DNA from: Cytophagales bacterium
GTDB lineage: Bacteria > Bacteroidota > Bacteroidia > Cytophagales > Cyclobacteriaceae
Direction of reading: 5' to 3'
Assembly: GCA_013298505.1 (NCBI GenBank)
Contig: JAAFHY010000002.1
Location: 62,001-126,000 of the forward strand
Length of the DNA stretch: 64,000 nucleotides
Below the pieces are notes generated by a model. It saw only the letters and a program-made list of their open reading frames with translations. It was not told the origin of the DNA and searched no databases. The translations under genes and the position numbers were made by a program. Shown one piece after another: positions 53,832 to 64,000 of the stretch; positions within the stretch are counted from its first letter, which is position 1, and each line of letters opens with the position of its first letter.

Positions 53832-56800
53832 GTGAAAACCCGCTTCTCAACCTTTATATTGGCATTGATGGCTTACCTACCAGGGTTCGCCCAACAAAAT
53901 GTCCAAGATGCAGCCTATCAATTGGGGTTTCAAGATAGCATTCGGGTGCTTTACAATAACACAAAAGCCATGGAGGTAATGGCAATTGGTGATGGCTTTG
54001 CAGCTGCTTGGGCAAATCTCGGCCCCGAGCAACAGATGCAAATTAAAAGGCAATCTTTTAGAATGAAAAAGAAGGGCTATAAGTTGCGTTCTCATTTCAT
54101 AAATTATTTCGGCTCTATGGTGGCAGCCTTGGCAACCGAAAAAATGGAAGCCAATAAGTTCGGAGAATTTTTAACCGTTGTCGATAAAGTAATAGCAAAA
54201 GAAAATAGCAATCAAGCCAACGTATTCTTTCAACAGGCGCGCGATTTTTTCGAGCATCACTCGCTCACCTATCAAAAGTTTTTTCGGTTGCACGCCCTTG
54301 ATGATAATTACTCGTTCGTTTACCGAGAGCCGGCTATTCCAGATACTGCTCAAACTTATTCGCCACCTGCAGAGCCAGACACTACTTCCATTTTATTGCC
54401 CAACTGGAAGCAGCCCATTGTGCAGCCCGAAGTTTTTGGTGCTGCGATTGAGTTCACTAAAGTCACATTGAATTTTGTTACGCCCTATGATTCTGCTTTT
54501 CTCAAAGAAACTAACGGCACTTTTTTTCTGCGAGATAAATTATTTCTGGGCGAAGGAGGTCGTTTTGATTGGACTACGGCCGGTCTGTCTGCCGATTCGG
54601 TAAACTGCGAATTGAATAAGTATCATTTCAAAACCACACAGCCCAACCTAAAGGCAGAGCAAAGCAAGCTACTATACGTTGGCAAACTTGCTGGGCGTGT
54701 TTCGGGTGTATTTGAATTCAAGAGCATTAATCATAAAAAAGGGAAACCGACTATCTACCCTCGGTTTAGATCGTACGAAAACAATGTGCCTATTCTTGGG
54801 CTTGGCTCACCGTATTTGTTTTATAGCGGTGGTGTAGGCATGGCGGGGGCAACCATAAACAGCACATCAGTAGCAGGAGATATAGCCACACTTGAATTGC
54901 GTGGCGAAGCGGATAAACGATTTAAAGCGCAATCACTTTCTTTTGCCTTTAAAGATTCGGTTATTCTTTCTTCAAGCGCCAAGGTGGCAATCTACCAAGA
55001 CAACGATTCACTCACGCACCAATCCATGCAAGTAAGATTGGATTTGAGCAAGCAGAAAATCACTCTCACAAAAGATAAAACCTCGCTACGGAAAGCCCCA
55101 TTTGTCTCATCTTATTTTGGCATTGAGTTTACGGCCGATGTGATTGATTGGAATTTGAAATCCGACAGCCTTACGATTAATGTTGAAGGAAGTGGCGGGG
55201 TATCACCGATGGTTATCGAATCAAACGATTTTTATGATCCATACGATTACGAGCAATTAAAAGGCGTAGGCTTTGGTTTCCATGCACTCGCCTACTTTGT
55301 TAATTACGCCAAACGAAACAACACGCAAGATTTTTTTGTGTATGATTTGGCCGATGCTACCCGGAGCACAGAAAAAATTAGAATGGCCGCAGATTTTCTA
55401 TCGCAAAAAGGAATGATCCTTTACGATGCGCGTACAGGCAAAGTACACCTGAAAGATAAAGCCTTGCACGTGGCCGAATCGGTAAAAGGCAATGCCGATT
55501 ATGATAACATGAAGTTGCACTCGTTGACTGATACGGTCTCTAATGCCATGCTAAGTCTAAAAGAACGGAGCATGGTGGTGCATGGCGTAGAAGAATTTAA
55601 TGTGAGTGATTCGCTGAACGTGGTGATAAAGCCGGACAGTGCTGTTGTAAAATTTTTGCGAAACCGTGATATAAAATTCAATGGCACGATCAACGCGGGC
55701 AACTTTGAAATTACCGGAAAAGATTTTACCCTCAAGTACGATAGCTTCTTTATTAACCTCAATCATATCGACTCAATTCGGTTTTATATAACCGAAAAAA
55801 ATGGGACTCGCAGAAGGGTAAATAACTCGATGGTAGGTGCCGATTCTACTGCGGCTGCAGCGGGCGGCCTCCAAACAGGTGCCAACAAAACTTCGGGAAC
55901 TCTATTTATCAATCGACCCGATAATAAATCGGGGAGGGCAAAGATCCCTAACTATCCGCGCTTGGATGCTACTGCTGGTGGTGTGATTTATTTCGATCGT
56001 GAAGAAGTGCTGGATGGCGCATACGATAAGTCTGTATTTTTTGTAGTGCCTCCTTTTAAGTTAGATAGTTTGAACGATGCCGATCCAGGCTCTATCAATT
56101 TTGAAGGCACATTTATTTCAAGCGGAATGTTTCCGGCATTCAAAGAGAAACTGCATACCATGCCCGATAAGTCGCTTGGGTTTACACACGCAGTACCCGT
56201 GAAGGGATATAATCTCTATCAAGGAGAAGGCAAACTATTTGGAGGCATGAATTTAGACAATGCCGGCATCCACGCAAGTGGAAGCATTGAATACCTAGCT
56301 GCTAAAGTTAATGCGGATGACTTTGTGTTTTATCCTGATTCGGTGCTCTCGAAAGGAAAAACAGGTGAGATAAAAGAGAAAAAAGTAGGCAGTGTTAATT
56401 TCCCTCAAATGAGTTTTACCGATTATCATTTGAAGTGGTTTCCCAAACAGGATAAGTTCAAACTCAAAAATTTAAAAGAACCTTTTTCGCTTTACAAAAA
56501 CACAGCCACACTAAACGGCATTGTTACGGTATCAAAAAGTGGTGTGGCCGGAAGCGGTAAGTTGAGTACGCGTGGATCTGAAGTGTCTTCAAGAGAAATG
56601 ACGTTTGCATCGAAAGATTTAGGTGCCAGACACGCACGGTTTGAAGTGAAAACCGGAAACCCCGATAAGCCCGCATTGGCCGGTAGTGATGTGCGCCTGA
56701 AATTTGACCTTGCTAATAATACTGCTACGATTAGTCCTGAGATAGAAGGCGTTGCCGCAATTGATTTTCCGTATGCGCAATTCAAAACGTCTATACCTCA

Positions 56801-58523
56801 AGCAAAATGGGACTTGACCACACAGAAAATTGTAATGACCAAGGCGGCTGATGTGCCTATTGAAAATTCTTATTTCTACACCACTCGCAAAGAACTAGAC
56901 TCGCTAAATTTTAGTGCGGAAAAAGCGGAGTATGATATTCAAACACAACAGCTAAAAGTGAGTGGTATACCATTCATTATTGTTGCCGATGCAAAAATTA
57001 CTCCTGAAAATAATGAAGTGCTTATTCTTGAAAATGCTAAAATCGGGCAACTGAAAAACACCACCATTATATTAGACACACTCAATGGCTACCATCGCCT
57101 TATCAACGGTGTGGTAGATATTGTATCTAGAAAGGAATTTACTGGCTATGCAACCTATCAATATGTAAATGCCGCTAACGATACGTTCAAAATTAAAATG
57201 ACCGATTTTCATTTGGAAGCAATTGAGACGGAAGGGAAATCACGAAAGAAAAATGTTAAGGCTACACAGCAGACTGTTGGGAATGGGGCCGTTGTTGATA
57301 CCGATAAAATATTAGTAGCCCCCCGCATATTTTACAAGGGCGATATGGTTATGTATGCCACCCGCCCTGCGTTACAATTAAAAGGTTTTGTGAAGCTCGA
57401 TTTAAAAAAACTAAAAAACTATAATACATGGCTTAGCTACAACCAGAGTGGTGACGAGAAGGAAATTTACCTCGACTTTGATAACACCACCACGGACGAA
57501 GGCAAACGAGCCACTGCGGGATTGCACTTTGCCCAAGACAACAGTCTTTACATCACCTTTGTTTTTGATAAGAAAGACGAAGGCGATGATGATTTCTTCT
57601 TACCGAGCGGCTCGCTATTTTTTGATAAAGAGAGTGGTCAATTTAAAATTGAAGACAGACAGAAAGCAGCTGGCCAAAAGCTATCAGGAAAAGTATTTGC
57701 TTACAATGAAGATAAGCAAGAAGTAAGCTTTGAAGGCCCAGTTACATTTTTTAAAAATCAGAAGGAATTAACACTGACAGCTTCTGCTATTGGTTCGGGA
57801 AGTTTGGCAACCAACGATATAAAAATGAATACGTTGGTCATGACAAAGATGAATATTCCTGATGCCGCGTATCAACTAATGGCCACTAATTTGCAAGAGG
57901 TAATTAAAAACGAGGGAGCTAACGAAGGCTTGGGCGATCAAACGGAATTGCTTTACAAAATGGCAAACCTTGTGGGTGAAAAAGTTACTAAAGATTACGA
58001 GCAGAAGGCCCAGCAGGGTTATGTATCGTTGGGCACGGTGCAAGGATTCGTTCAGCCGATTGTATTTTCAAACGTAAACCTGAAGTGGTCGCAAGATAAA
58101 AAAGCCTTTTATAGCGAGGGAGCTTTAGGGATTAGCAATGTAAATCGCAGCGATATCAATGGTGCATTTGAAGGGTTTATGGAGATTAGAAAAAATGAAG
58201 ATGGGGCACCGGTGTTTCACGTATTCTTTAAAGCATCGCCTGATGCGTGGTACTATTTTGGTTTTGAAGATAATCGCTTGATGGTTCACTCTTCTCACCA
58301 GCCATTTAATGATTTAATTTCTAAGAAGACCAACGCCAGCAAGGCGAAAGTAGGCGAGTTAGTATTTATTCCTGGGAGTGATGATGAAACACTTTCTTTT
58401 ATAAATCGATTCCGAATGAATTATTATGGAATAGAAGCTCCCTACGATTTATCGAGTGGCAGCGAATCTGCCAAGAAGAAAGAAAAGAAGAAAGAAGAAA
58501 AGAAAGAAGACGATGGATTCTAG
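53832..58523 (+). CDS. Giant exported protein of unknown function
   Basis: 1563 residues, GTG start (signal peptide about 1-20, LALMAYLPGFAQQ). Residues about 25-180 are helical; from about 210 to 1520 the protein looks entirely beta, with many strands of alternating hydrophobic residues and repeated phrases such as GVIYFDREEVLDG, GSINFEGTFISSGMFP and GVVDIVSRKEFTGYATYQY. The end is a low-complexity basic/acidic tail (SAKKKEKKKEEKKEDDGF). No transmembrane helix beyond the signal. This resembles large periplasmic beta-rich proteins conserved in Cytophagales; I do not recognise a named family. Lipid- or glycan-bridging is speculation. Confidence 0.7.
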   Translation: MKTRFSTFILALMAYLPGFAQQNVQDAAYQLGFQDSIRVLYNNTKAMEVMAIGDGFAAAWANLGPEQQMQIKRQSFRMKKKGYKLRSHFINYFGSMVAALATEKMEANKFGEFLTVVDKVIAKENSNQANVFFQQARDFFEHHSLTYQKFFRLHALDDNYSFVYREPAIPDTAQTYSPPAEPDTTSILLPNWKQPIVQPEVFGAAIEFTKVTLNFVTPYDSAFLKETNGTFFLRDKLFLGEGGRFDWTTAGLSADSVNCELNKYHFKTTQPNLKAEQSKLLYVGKLAGRVSGVFEFKSINHKKGKPTIYPRFRSYENNVPILGLGSPYLFYSGGVGMAGATINSTSVAGDIATLELRGEADKRFKAQSLSFAFKDSVILSSSAKVAIYQDNDSLTHQSMQVRLDLSKQKITLTKDKTSLRKAPFVSSYFGIEFTADVIDWNLKSDSLTINVEGSGGVSPMVIESNDFYDPYDYEQLKGVGFGFHALAYFVNYAKRNNTQDFFVYDLADATRSTEKIRMAADFLSQKGMILYDARTGKVHLKDKALHVAESVKGNADYDNMKLHSLTDTVSNAMLSLKERSMVVHGVEEFNVSDSLNVVIKPDSAVVKFLRNRDIKFNGTINAGNFEITGKDFTLKYDSFFINLNHIDSIRFYITEKNGTRRRVNNSMVGADSTAAAAGGLQTGANKTSGTLFINRPDNKSGRAKIPNYPRLDATAGGVIYFDREEVLDGAYDKSVFFVVPPFKLDSLNDADPGSINFEGTFISSGMFPAFKEKLHTMPDKSLGFTHAVPVKGYNLYQGEGKLFGGMNLDNAGIHASGSIEYLAAKVNADDFVFYPDSVLSKGKTGEIKEKKVGSVNFPQMSFTDYHLKWFPKQDKFKLKNLKEPFSLYKNTATLNGIVTVSKSGVAGSGKLSTRGSEVSSREMTFASKDLGARHARFEVKTGNPDKPALAGSDVRLKFDLANNTATISPEIEGVAAIDFPYAQFKTSIPQAKWDLTTQKIVMTKAADVPIENSYFYTTRKELDSLNFSAEKAEYDIQTQQLKVSGIPFIIVADAKITPENNEVLILENAKIGQLKNTTIILDTLNGYHRLINGVVDIVSRKEFTGYATYQYVNAANDTFKIKMTDFHLEAIETEGKSRKKNVKATQQTVGNGAVVDTDKILVAPRIFYKGDMVMYATRPALQLKGFVKLDLKKLKNYNTWLSYNQSGDEKEIYLDFDNTTTDEGKRATAGLHFAQDNSLYITFVFDKKDEGDDDFFLPSGSLFFDKESGQFKIEDRQKAAGQKLSGKVFAYNEDKQEVSFEGPVTFFKNQKELTLTASAIGSGSLATNDIKMNTLVMTKMNIPDAAYQLMATNLQEVIKNEGANEGLGDQTELLYKMANLVGEKVTKDYEQKAQQGYVSLGTVQGFVQPIVFSNVNLKWSQDKKAFYSEGALGISNVNRSDINGAFEGFMEIRKNEDGAPVFHVFFKASPDAWYYFGFEDNRLMVHSSHQPFNDLISKKTNASKAKVGELVFIPGSDDETLSFINRFRMNYYGIEAPYDLSSGSESAKKKEKKKEEKKEDDGF

Positions 58524-58534
58524 TTTATCAAACC

Positions 58535-59299
58535 TCAGTCTGTAGCATTTTGATTTTGTTCTGTCAATTTTTTTCGCTCTCTATCAACATGCCTCCCATG
58601 AAAAATCATAACAGGCGTATATAGAAAATAGGTAAAGCCCCCGAGCATACCCGCGAGCCAATGGCCTCGAAAGCAAAATGCAACAAGAACAGAAATTAGT
58701 GGAATAAGACTCATCAATAAACTCGACCTTACTTTTACTTTTGTTTCAAACCGTTCAAGTTCACTCAGGTCTAATTCATCTGCTTGTTGATGCGCATAGC
58801 GATACATAAGCATCAAGACAAAAAATACACCAGAGGCACCGAGTCCATAAATAATCATCAGATCGGCCATGTCTTCGCCTCGAATCATTTTAGCCAAATC
58901 GTCCATAATCGATTGTTCGTTTACTAAGTAGCCAATTGGGTATAGGATCAGCTTGGTAAGAAACTTTAAAGGATAAACATAGAATAACACAATCACCAAG
59001 AATAAGGTGTTGAGTACAATGATCTTTCCGTTGCGTAATCCGTATCGTAAGAAATAAACATAGTGCTCGTGCCAAATTGAAATAATCAAAGCGATGCAAA
59101 GTAAAAATGGAATTAGCTCAAACGAAAAGCGTTTTATCTGTTCAAAATTAGTTGGTGGTGTTGTAGAGATAAGTAAAAGAGTAACGGCCAAAGCAAAAAC
59201 TGCATCGCTGAAATTTTCTAACCGACCCGGCTCTTTGCCACGAAACCGAAACCCTTCATTAGTTGCTTTCTTATTATTTATAATTAGTTCTCGCATCAT
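58535..59299 (-). CDS. TMEM175 family potassium channel-like membrane protein
   Basis: 254 residues from MMRELI (ATG at 59299; an ATG one codon later is equal). Six transmembrane helices: about 28-46 (NFSDAVFALAVTLLLIS), 56-75, 88-112, 148-166, 195-212, 215-235. The TMEM175 signature R-x-x-x-FSD is R26-x3-F30-S31-D32, followed by the pore-lining TM1. In bacteria these form tetrameric potassium channels. Its ATG is one base after the stop of the BLUF gene, so translation is coupled: a sensor and a channel in one message. Confidence 0.88.
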   Translation of the reverse strand: MMRELIINNKKATNEGFRFRGKEPGRLENFSDAVFALAVTLLLISTTPPTNFEQIKRFSFELIPFLLCIALIISIWHEHYVYFLRYGLRNGKIIVLNTLFLVIVLFYVYPLKFLTKLILYPIGYLVNEQSIMDDLAKMIRGEDMADLMIIYGLGASGVFFVLMLMYRYAHQQADELDLSELERFETKVKVRSSLLMSLIPLISVLVAFCFRGHWLAGMLGGFTYFLYTPVMIFHGRHVDRERKKLTEQNQNATD

Positions 59300-59300
59300 C

Positions 59301-59741
59301 TTATAAAATAGATTCGGGGTAATCGATAATGTTTTTTTTATAAAATAATTTCAAGAAAACGAGTACTAAGCTAGTAGCCTCTGCATTGTTTCTGCTCTCA
59401 AAAAAATAATCTAAATCGGAAAACCCTGCCAGTGATTGAAATTCGTGATCGCCTAATCTTTTGAAGCCCATCGCCCAGTCTTTAAAAATTCGCTCTTCCG
59501 ATTCGCCTTCCATCACCATCGTGATTTTTTTGTGCCGATCGTCTTGTTCAATTTTAGTATAGAGGTTATTGACAACCGACTTTTCCCCTTCTAGCACTTG
59601 AATGAATTTACCTCTTGTATGTATCAACATTCCTGTGATGCCTATTTTCTTATTTGTCCCTCGACTTTGGTTGAGCAGATCAATTAGATCTTCTTCAGAA
59701 AAATGGGTGACGGCAGTGCTTGTATAAACTAAGTAATACAT
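59301..59741 (-). CDS. BLUF-domain blue-light sensor protein
   Basis: 146 residues. BLUF domain 1-95, FAD-binding blue-light sensor. All AppA-type photochemistry residues are present with exact spacing: Tyr6 (YTS), Asn30 (TNKK), Gln48 (FIQVLEGE), Trp89 (DWAMGF) and Met91. Short C-terminal helical extension (95-146). Because BLUF alone has no output, the partner is expected to be another protein: TMEM175, encoded 1 bp downstream. PrsW lies 39 bp upstream on the same strand. Confidence 0.93.
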   Translation of the reverse strand: MYYLVYTSTAVTHFSEEDLIDLLNQSRGTNKKIGITGMLIHTRGKFIQVLEGEKSVVNNLYTKIEQDDRHKKITMVMEGESEERIFKDWAMGFKRLGDHEFQSLAGFSDLDYFFESRNNAEATSLVLVFLKLFYKKNIIDYPESIL

Positions 59742-59780
59742 AGATCGAATTTACTAAATAGCCAGCTAGCAGCCAAAATT

Positions 59781-60470
59781 CTATTCTGTAGATTTATTGA
59801 TAAAAGGGGATGCGTCTTGATGAATGCGCATAGCTCTTCGCGATAGGAATACGCCAATGCTGAGCGATAGTATAGCTCCGATCCAAATGCCAGGCACATA
59901 CGAGATAAACCAAAAATAGTCATAGGCTCCATGGAAAAGTGCAGCAACGCCAAGCGCATAAATTGCATAGTGCGATTTTCTATGTTCAAATTTTGCTTTT
60001 CCTAAAAAGTAGCCCATCAATACACCAAACGTAGCATGAGCAGGCACCGCAGTAAACATTCGTAAAATGGCAGTCTCAACTCCACCGTTGCTGATGTATA
60101 AAATGTTTTCGAGGCCTGCAAAACCTAAACTCACAACTACCGAGTATACAATTCCATCGTACGGCTCGTTAAAATTTTTGTTGGGATAGAGAATCCAATA
60201 AACAAAGATGAATTTACTGAACTCTTCAATTAAAGCAACCAATAAAAATGCGTGTACGGCTTGTTGACTAATACTAGTTGGATCGATTGGAATAAAATGA
60301 TTAATGGGCCAACTCATTAATAATGTAATAACCGTGCTGATAGCACCAAAGAAAAAACTTTGAATCAAAAGCCCAATAGGCTCACGCTCGTGTTTGTCTT
60401 TAAGATAAATATACAAGCCAATGGCCGCACCGGGAGCCAATGCGAGGGCGAGCAGAAAAAGAATATTCAT
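59781..60470 (-). CDS. PrsW-like intramembrane metalloprotease
   Basis: 229 residues with about seven transmembrane segments. The metal-binding motifs of the PrsW/CPBP type are seen: EEFSKFIFVYWILY, AHATFGVLMGYFLGKA and ALFHGAYDYFWF. PrsW in Bacillus starts cleavage of an anti-sigma factor, but in other bacteria substrates are unknown. It is the first gene of the set PrsW - BLUF - TMEM175, with a -7 match upstream. Confidence 0.82.
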   Translation of the reverse strand: MNILFLLALALAPGAAIGLYIYLKDKHEREPIGLLIQSFFFGAISTVITLLMSWPINHFIPIDPTSISQQAVHAFLLVALIEEFSKFIFVYWILYPNKNFNEPYDGIVYSVVVSLGFAGLENILYISNGGVETAILRMFTAVPAHATFGVLMGYFLGKAKFEHRKSHYAIYALGVAALFHGAYDYFWFISYVPGIWIGAILSLSIGVFLSRRAMRIHQDASPFINKSTE

Positions 60471-60489: not shown

Positions 60490-60497
60490 CAAAGGTA
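60490..60497 (-). promoter_or_regulatory. -7 element TACCTTTG for prsW-BLUF-TMEM175
   Basis: Exact TAnnTTTG on the minus strand, 19 bp before the PrsW start. No clear TTTG at -33; the nearest T-rich run is 16 bp upstream. Confidence 0.5.
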
Positions 60498-60586: not shown

Positions 60587-61354
60587 TTAAATTTTTACCC
60601 GCTCCCCAATATACCTCAACCCATCTAGTGTCAACTCTGGATCGATGGAGTGGAAGAAATCTTTCAAGGGTGAAATCACAAAAGATAAACCACCCGTTGC
60701 GATGGCTGGGCAATCTTCTTTCAACTCTTCGCGAATGGCCGACACCATTTTTCTGACCAAGCCTTCATAGCCGATTACAATTCCAGATTGAATAGCGGTA
60801 ACGGTGCTGGTGCCCAAGGCTGACTTCGGAATTTCCAACGGAACATCAAATAGTTTAGCTGCATTTTGAGTGAGTGCTTTCAATGCCGTTCGTAAGCCAG
60901 GTACAATGGATACACCTAAAATTTTTCCTTCCTTCGATATAGTCGTAAAGGTAAGTGCTGTGCCAAAATCAACCACAATGCAAGTTTGATGGTACTTGGT
61001 ATAAGCACCCATGGCATTGGCCACAAGGTCTGACCCAATTTCGTAAGGATTCAAAATTTTAATAGGAAGCTGTTCATAAATCTTTGGCCCTACCACTATT
61101 GGATCTTTTTGAAAAAATGTTCGCACCACACTTCGTATTTTATCAGTAAGAGCTGGCACTACGCTGCTTAGCACAATTGTGGTAACCTGTTCGGGTTCTT
61201 CAGACGACTCCAAAAAGTAGTCGCGCATTTTTACGCCATAAAATAATTCTGGCTGGTCGGGCTTGGAAGGAATGCGCCAATGGTATTTCCATTTTTCACC
61301 CGACCATAACCCGATGGTGATATCACTGTTGCCAATGTCGATTGCTAATAGCAT
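60587..61354 (-). CDS. coaX: Type III pantothenate kinase
   Basis: First enzyme of coenzyme A synthesis. 255 residues. Acetate/sugar-kinase fold: LLAIDIGNSDITIGLW phosphate loop, GSDLVANAMGAY, VVDFGTALTFTTIS (motif with catalytic Asp), and GAIVIGYEGL-like SGIVIGYEGLVRKM. Starts 39 bp downstream of the STN/repeat gene stop, same strand. Confidence 0.95.
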   Translation of the reverse strand: MLLAIDIGNSDITIGLWSGEKWKYHWRIPSKPDQPELFYGVKMRDYFLESSEEPEQVTTIVLSSVVPALTDKIRSVVRTFFQKDPIVVGPKIYEQLPIKILNPYEIGSDLVANAMGAYTKYHQTCIVVDFGTALTFTTISKEGKILGVSIVPGLRTALKALTQNAAKLFDVPLEIPKSALGTSTVTAIQSGIVIGYEGLVRKMVSAIREELKEDCPAIATGGLSFVISPLKDFFHSIDPELTLDGLRYIGERVKI

Positions 61355-63207: not shown

Positions 63208-64000
63208 TTAGTGAATGTTGCAGCCTAACCCCTCCAAATAAATTTTATCATCCTTTCTATTGATGGTAAGATTCATCGTTTCGGCAATCACTTCCATAAT
63301 GGTGTTAGGGTCATCTTCAAAAAATTGAGCCGTTAGTTGACAATCTTTAATAGCCGTGGCAAGTGAAATGTTAGTATTGTATATTTCGTTTAGCAGCTTA
63401 ATTACTAACTTCAATTCTGTATTCTTAAAATTAAAAATCTTTGTTTTGTAGGCAAGCACATTTGTGTCTGATTTCATTAGCCGATGAAATTCTTTTCTAG
63501 ATTTAAGGTAGAGCGCACTTTCTCCAGTTTTCAAATTTAAGCCAGCATTTTTTAAGGTATAAAACTGAACTTCACCCTCTGTTACTGTTATCTCTATCGT
63601 GTCTTTTTCAGGATATGCCTTAAGGTTAAACTGTGTACCAATATCGCGGACCAACACATCGGCTACTTCGATAACAAACGGACTTGCTTCCTCATGTTTC
63701 ACAGCGAAGAAAGCCTCGCCTTTAAATTTTACTTTACGCTGGCCAGAAGTTCGATTAAACGAAAAACTAACTTCCGACTTCTTGTTCAAAAAAACCCTAG
63801 ACCCATCGGGTAACGTATCATTTTGTGTTTGGGTAGATGAAGAAATAGTAATTATGGGTAACGTTTTTTCGGTGGTGAGATAAAACAACTCACTTACACC
63901 TACAACCATCGCTATTACTGCGGCAATTCGCCAATCGAAATGAAGTGCTCTGATTTTTGTTTCTTTATTTCGACTATTCAATCTGGATTTTACATTGAGC
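63208..64000 (-). CDS. FecR family anti-sigma factor (5' end beyond window)
   Basis: Minus-strand frame stays open to base 64000, so the gene is truncated at its N-terminus; only the C-terminal 264 residues are here. A transmembrane helix (IAAVIAMVVGVSELFYL) follows SRLNSRNKETKIRALHFDW, then the FecR domain (DTLPDGSRVFLNKKSEVSFS, FKGEAFFAVKHEEASPFVIEVADVLVRDIGTQFNLKAY) and the DUF4974 C-terminal part ending in NRKDDKIYLEGLGCNI. Signals from an outer-membrane protein to an ECF sigma factor. The TTG at 63981 is not a real start. The sigma gene should lie just right of the window. Confidence 0.88.
   Translation of the reverse strand, partial: LNVKSRLNSRNKETKIRALHFDWRIAAVIAMVVGVSELFYLTTEKTLPIITISSSTQTQNDTLPDGSRVFLNKKSEVSFSFNRTSGQRKVKFKGEAFFAVKHEEASPFVIEVADVLVRDIGTQFNLKAYPEKDTIEITVTEGEVQFYTLKNAGLNLKTGESALYLKSRKEFHRLMKSDTNVLAYKTKIFNFKNTELKLVIKLLNEIYNTNISLATAIKDCQLTAQFFEDDPNTIMEVIAETMNLTINRKDDKIYLEGLGCNIH

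Follow-up and report, generated by a model that had tools for sequence, protein, structure and literature searches.

A conserved gene order joining a PrsW-family protease, a short BLUF photoreceptor and a TMEM175-type channel in one genus of Cyclobacteriaceae

Structures of bacterial TMEM175 channels are known, and to our knowledge no role has been assigned to them; we likewise know of no partner for most short BLUF photoreceptors. A locus in which genes of these two kinds lie one base pair apart therefore raises the question of whether a light sensor acts on the channel encoded beside it, and of what part is played by the gene for an intramembrane protease that precedes both. The locus lies in a stretch of 64 000 nucleotides (the window, throughout at its full length) from a bacterium whose group is known mainly from environmental DNA. 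If conserved, an operon joining BLUF and TMEM175 to an intramembrane protease offers a concrete and testable set of partners for both.

In the window the genes lie on the minus strand in the order coaX, PrsW-family protease, BLUF and TMEM175, and the coordinates and reading frames, when checked, were as the preliminary description had given them. The PrsW-family (PF13367) protease of 229 amino acids is encoded at 59781..60470 (Pfam 1.7e-37), the BLUF protein (PF04940) of 146 amino acids at 59301..59741 (9.7e-31) and a long-form bacterial TMEM175 channel (PF06736) of 254 amino acids at 58535..59299 (3.8e-11); all three exceed their Pfam cut-offs. The BLUF stop codon TAA (59301-59303) is followed one base on by the ATG ATG of TMEM175, which gives the junction TAA-G-ATG (59297..59303) with a gap of 1 bp, and the gap of 39 bp between PrsW and BLUF was confirmed from the coordinates. 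The coaX gene (type III pantothenate kinase by Pfam search, 60587..61354) ends 116 bp upstream of PrsW and belongs to the flank, outside the cassette. On the other side a gene of 1563 codons (53832-58523, plus strand) converges with TMEM175 and ends 11 bp from it; it gave no Pfam match at 0.01, and its relatives (family f4) were present in many of the loci examined.

An exact -7 box had also been claimed upstream of PrsW. The sequence TACCTTTG is indeed present at 60490..60497 on the minus strand, and resembles the -7 box consensus of Bacteroidota. Its conservation did not follow: TAnnTTTG occurred no more than 60 nt from the PrsW start in 4 of 46 PrsW loci against 1.4 expected from shuffles. 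A conserved -7 box was thus not found upstream of PrsW in these 46 loci, in a rough comparison that took the first methionine as the start; in 17 of the loci this methionine was over 15 codons inside the frame.

Conservation of the layout was assessed in a sample of 62 genomes of the genus, including the window genome (G000). TMEM175 was called as the long form at E<1e-10 and BLUF at 100 bits or more, a threshold that omits the fragments in G482 and the distant BLUFs of G429, G484 and G557. TMEM175 was present in 23 genomes, BLUF in 21 and both in 11. The three genes were adjacent on one strand in the order PrsW-BLUF-TMEM175 in 10 of these 11 genomes (G000, G064, G407, G502, G508, G518, G527, in which BLUF is frame-shifted, G528, G534 and G549), while in the eleventh, G476, they lie on three contigs. 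The layout, noted at first in a single genome, is therefore shared by ten. With starts set by the conserved N-terminus, the gap between BLUF and TMEM175 measured 1-7 bp in 8 of the 10 three-gene loci, and relative to the window the nine other genomes encode BLUFs 46-65% and channels 57-68% identical. The cassette was found behind coaX in six cases (G000, G064 with one gene between, G508, G518, G527 and G528), behind a gene of family f3 in G502, G534 and G549, and behind neither in G407. The ten loci represent at least two gene contexts, so that the flanking genes vary and the cassette itself remains intact. With its shared order and short spacing, the three-gene layout is more than chance. We regard it as a conserved PrsW-BLUF-TMEM175 operon in which, from the 1-bp junction and the conserved order, BLUF and TMEM175 are probably co-translated; the preliminary description had called this almost sure. 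Its author also knew of no such layout in the literature, and literature searches found no paper pairing BLUF with TMEM175, DUF1211 or PrsW, or concerned with such a genomic context.

Association between the genes was then counted at the 45 PrsW loci of the genus, of which 10 have both BLUF and TMEM175, 10 BLUF only, 10 TMEM175 only and 15 neither (Fisher odds ratio 1.5, p 0.56). The p value was 1.0 without two loci that end at a contig end directly behind PrsW (G530 and G557) and a second PrsW copy (G555p), all three in the class with neither gene, and 0.50 when loci with broken or frame-shifted genes were also excluded. Co-retention of BLUF and channel was thus not found at the locus, and genome-wide it was weak (11 of 62 with both, Fisher p 0.098). 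This split indicates that BLUF and the channel are each kept or missing without the other. PrsW-adjoining BLUFs without TMEM175 were intact in eight loci and broken in G479 and G482, the former with a second, intact BLUF elsewhere. The 10 PrsW-TMEM175 loci without BLUF include seven with an unbroken channel and three in which it is broken or frame-shifted (G523, G525 and G555); in this arrangement TMEM175 often overlaps PrsW by 4 bp (G362, G452, G490, G496, G525 and G555).

PrsW was the more regular companion. Within the genus, 20 loci have BLUF next to PrsW, the BLUF gene being broken in two of them, G479 and G482, and frame-shifted in G527. By genome, among the 62, PrsW accompanies BLUF in 20 of 21 (Fisher 0.006) and TMEM175 in 21 of 23 (Fisher 0.017), neither value corrected for kinship; the former fell to 0.13 in the subset of 44 more complete genomes. 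Since 15 of the 45 PrsW loci show neither gene, PrsW appears to work without these accessories. No residues specific to channel-linked BLUFs were found beyond shuffles, the largest MI being reached in 128 of 300. For TMEM175 the largest MI was reached in 26 of 300 shuffles and the summed MI exceeded all 300, with kinship uncorrected. A single clade of PrsW-linked BLUFs was ruled out (p-AU 0.0006), which fits old linkage with later unlinking. In two members of the genus (L114 and L128, from G476 and G561) the gene immediately before TMEM175 belongs to a class-V aminotransferase family (f32).

Outside the genus the arrangement changes. In a sample of 194 genomes of the order, searched at E 0.001, BLUF was found in 61, TMEM175 in 71 and PrsW in 46; BLUF and TMEM175 occurred together in 30 and were adjacent in two, both of the window's genus, with the next nearest pair 12.7 kb apart. 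For the family, with 390 genomes, the closest BLUF-TMEM175 pair beyond the genus among the matches listed, judged by eye, was separated by 13 kb. The best 80 of at least 285 confirmed matches gave 79 named TMEM175 loci from many phyla, with BLUF nearby in 5 and PrsW nearby in 11, and those bearing BLUF or PrsW were all labelled Cyclobacteriaceae, Flammeovirgaceae or Bacteroidetes. As the order, family and named-locus samples show none beyond it, direct BLUF-TMEM175 adjacency is seen in one genus only. In these samples the adjacency was not found to be widespread in Bacteroidota or beyond (two of the 30 order genomes with both families, and 5 of 79 named loci from the best 80 matches). The co-occurrence that the preliminary description had proposed to look for in Bacteroidota thus held within the genus, with its ten adjacent pairs, and was not found outside it as adjacency in the samples covered. 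By inspection of the match tables, a long TMEM175 is encoded somewhere in 17 of the 20 genomes from other genera that have a BLUF of at least 100 bits.

Each accessory was found with PrsW in other genera. A second genus, g125, has PrsW-BLUF in 5 of 5 genomes examined; its TMEM175 lies elsewhere, 13-92 kb off in three genomes with both on one contig, and no PrsW was seen beside TMEM175 in the three genomes looked at. In genus g2, all 6 of the genomes examined (G019, G078, G333, G373, G388 and G401) have PrsW before TMEM175, and PrsW-TMEM175 was also seen in g108 (G280). Six BLUF regions of g2 were inspected, in which another PrsW lies one gene upstream in G019 and G333 and three genes upstream in G388, with none among the genes shown for G078, G401 and G465. 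Fifteen more TMEM175 loci from other genera of the family had no PrsW among their neighbours (of 20 regions, that of G275 being clipped at its upstream end). PrsW is the constant member, with PrsW-BLUF recurring in a second genus and PrsW-TMEM175 in two further genera. G019 and G333 each have a PrsW-family gene next to TMEM175 and a second one close to BLUF (L246 and L247 against G019:C11 and L283), as if each copy had retained one accessory. The aminotransferase family f32 is also represented in four g2 genomes (L246-L249), where its gene either adjoins PrsW and BLUF or separates them.

The BLUF protein scored 106.2 bits against a Pfam cut-off of 25. Tyr6, Asn30, Gln48, Trp89 and Met91 were in the places claimed for them, and His70 was likewise present; these are residues with known roles in BLUF photochemistry. 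In 24 aligned BLUFs all six were kept in every intact copy, except for one change of His70 to Asn (G549), and they are kept also in BLUFs from loci that lack the channel. The AF2 model had a pLDDT of 81, with a lower C-terminal part (pLDDT 57-68), and its best PDB folds were those of PixD (1x0p, 8i98 and 2hfn), with BlsA (6w72) lower in the list. Model and fold matches agree with the earlier view that the protein has no output domain: like PixD (Tll0078/Slr1694) and BlsA it has ~145 amino acids, a BLUF domain with C-terminal helices and the same photo-residues, and it is predicted to be photoactive. The setting is different, as PixD acts on PixE and the window BLUF adjoins genes for a membrane protease and a channel. 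BlsA too differs in this respect, being described, in the accessible part of its source, as acting through Fur (PMC5955987).

The channel matches MtTMEM175 of Marivirga (6hd8) by sequence over residues 12-247 at 3e-55. Its AF2 model (pLDDT 74) matched 6swr and 6hd8 in Foldseek at 1e-13 to 4e-13, with TMq 0.74-0.75, so that the likeness covers nearly the whole sequence and the fold. The R-x3-FSD signature described previously was present as R26-x3-F30-S31-D32, and the pore and gate residues are Thr40 and Leu37 respectively. Thr40 was found in 25 of the 28 aligned relatives that have a residue there. With residue roles taken from the accessible part of PMC7176437, Arg24, Asp30, Ala34, Leu35, Thr38 and Trp74 of MtTMEM175 correspond to R26, D32, A36, L37, T40 and W76 of the window channel. 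The same source describes MtTMEM175 (from Marivirga tractuosa) as a potassium channel on the basis of currents in transfected HEK293 cells; the window channel differs in being encoded 1 bp behind BLUF and behind PrsW, neither of which that part of the source mentions. Two further, shorter TMEM175 genes are present in the window genome (G000:C196:19466-19741 and G000:C1:179134-179406), and both outscore the window TMEM175 on PF06736.

PrsW proteins carry the motifs EExxK, FxxxE and HxxxD, whose residues have known roles, and the window protein has them as EEFSK at 82, FAGLE at 117 and HGAYD at 180. The E, E and K, F and E, and H and D of the three motifs were identical in 48 of 48 aligned relatives. 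The Pfam score was 129.3 bits against a cut-off of 23.5, while the NCBIfam PrsW equivalog NF033739 gave 168.7 bits, below its cut-off of 225; the protein is for this reason assigned to the PrsW family and not called a PrsW equivalog. Both it and the channel would be expected to be active. It shares PF13367 and the glutamate and histidine motifs with PrsW of Bacillus subtilis, but differs in the equivalog score and in having BLUF and TMEM175 as neighbours. According to the accessible part of PMC3498285, the B. subtilis protein is a site-1 protease acting on the anti-sigma factor RsiW. A FecR-type anti-sigma factor gene, clipped by the window end (63208..63999, minus strand; PF04773 1.1e-14), is found upstream of coaX here and in six more coaX-context loci, and its family (f9) was present in 7 of 41 loci, all with coaX-PrsW. 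By analogy with RsiW, and from its position upstream of coaX, its product is one possible candidate for a PrsW substrate. Genes of a sigma-factor-like family (f11, recognised by eye) lie three genes beyond PrsW in four loci that have PrsW alone (L228, L232, L233 and L239, from G419, G536, G512 and G492), and f9 and f11 genes, of anti-sigma and sigma type, are found near paired BLUF genes, without PrsW, in g128 (L258 and L261, from G463 and G468).

A rhodopsin gene (PF01036 over the cut-off) was found in 17 of the 62 genomes of the genus; that of the window genome is a piece of 82 codons at a contig end, and the genome also has two photolyase-type genes. BLUF was present in 13 of the 17 rhodopsin genomes and 8 of the 45 others (p 3e-5, kinship uncorrected), compared with 6 of 17 and 17 of 45 for TMEM175 (p 1.0). 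BLUF presence tracks rhodopsin and TMEM175 does not, and a gene set for life in the light is possible. The link rests on few independent events: on the PrsW tree of 45 rows, independent pairs for BLUF and rhodopsin numbered 2.1 the same way against 0.4 opposite, and those for BLUF and TMEM175 3.0 against 0.9. As neither is significant, the kinship-corrected test, too small to confirm the rhodopsin link, favours neither as the partner of BLUF. The BLUF dN/dS was 0.03-0.09 in four pairs including a channel-bearing genome (G508/G528, G518/G547, G518/G520 and G518/G527), with dS >1.3 in two of the four and two further pairs saturated, and 0.27 in G547/G520, the sole usable pair without a channel. 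Together with the two broken BLUFs (G479 and G482), this rate hints that BLUF is of less importance in lineages that have lost the channel.

The reading that we prefer, tentatively and with its probability put a little short of even, is of a membrane operon anchored by PrsW with two optional accessories, a PixD-like BLUF and a TMEM175 cation channel, serving one response. PrsW, BLUF and TMEM175 would most likely be co-transcribed from one operon; BLUF would sense light, PrsW would perform a site-1-like membrane proteolysis and TMEM175 would provide a potassium/proton leak, all in the service of a single response, of the envelope or of membrane energy, in cells exposed to light. The genes, their motifs, the conserved order and the separability of BLUF and channel are observed, and from them we infer co-transcription and a link between BLUF and PrsW. 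Because BLUF adjoins PrsW where the channel is absent, PrsW or its pathway would be the likelier direct partner of BLUF, if it has one in the operon. Against this, other genes separate PrsW and BLUF in g2, or PrsW is not nearby; a third of the PrsW loci (15 of 45) have neither accessory; the BLUF-rhodopsin link rests on few independent events, and in the paired test BLUF-TMEM175 fares about as well; the window PrsW falls below the equivalog cut-off; and the dN/dS values and broken BLUFs hint at a tie to the channel. A possible but less probable explanation is plain operon inheritance: genes for stress or housekeeping functions would be read from a common promoter, behind coaX or other genes, and neither BLUF nor TMEM175 would be tied in function to PrsW or to the other. 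Housekeeping genes are found in some flanks (coaX, and nadC- and tpiA-like neighbours recognised by eye), 15 of the 45 PrsW loci lack both accessories, BLUF and channel come and go independently, and the clusters found are all within one bacterial family. Yet the three genes remain side by side where both flanks differ, PrsW-BLUF recurs in another context in g125 and PrsW-TMEM175 in g2 and g108, and within the genus nearly every genome with either accessory also has PrsW (20 of 21 and 21 of 23).

That the free-standing BLUF protein is a natural flavin-based switch which in blue light controls the PrsW protease, and TMEM175 where present, so that light would set membrane proteolysis and cation leak in rhodopsin-bearing Cyclobacteriaceae, is a stronger version which we consider unlikely. 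Most improbable of all is the reading closest to that of the preliminary description, that BLUF binds TMEM175 and blue light gates the channel, setting potassium flux and membrane potential. The conserved operon on which it was built stands, as do the 1-7 bp spacing in 8 of 10 loci and an adjacency retained in nine other genomes despite the divergence of both proteins; the channel-less BLUFs that are broken (G479 and G482) or faster (G547/G520), and the 17 of 20 BLUF genomes outside the genus that hold a long TMEM175, also speak for it. The accessible part of PMC12627116 describes hyperpolarisation by blue light through potassium channels in bacteria. A BLUF dedicated to the channel is not supported, however: eight loci have an intact, PrsW-linked BLUF and no channel, ten have a channel (three of them broken or frame-shifted) and no BLUF, and the two are independent at the locus (p 0.56, 0.50-1.0 in variants). 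Adjacency in one genus, the lack of linkage-specific residues among the BLUFs compared and the identification of the closest solved homologue, MtTMEM175, as a potassium channel by HEK293 currents in the accessible part of PMC7176437 argue further against it. The step from co-translated genes to a light-gated channel, though possible, gains no support from the presence and absence of the two genes.

Blue light does control potassium conductance through a BLUF protein in an engineered silencer made of a photoactivated adenylyl cyclase and a small potassium channel, according to the accessible part of PMC6218482. The window offers a partial analogy in pairing BLUF and channel genes, although the silencer is synthetic and the window holds a natural gene pair with no cyclase. 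The silencer reportedly works through cAMP. If light acted on either membrane protein of the operon, BLUF would reach membrane proteins by a natural route that needs no cyclic nucleotide, which would be useful to photobiology and optogenetics.

No BLUF-TMEM175 gene fusion was present among the matches listed, in which the longest BLUF frame was one of 529 codons (L266; G453:C286, 18000-24000) joining a BLUF domain to an AIR-synthase-like domain pair. We know of no such fusion in the literature. Its domains matched PF04940 at 1.1e-25, PF00586 at 1.8e-11 and PF02769 at 6.3e-11.
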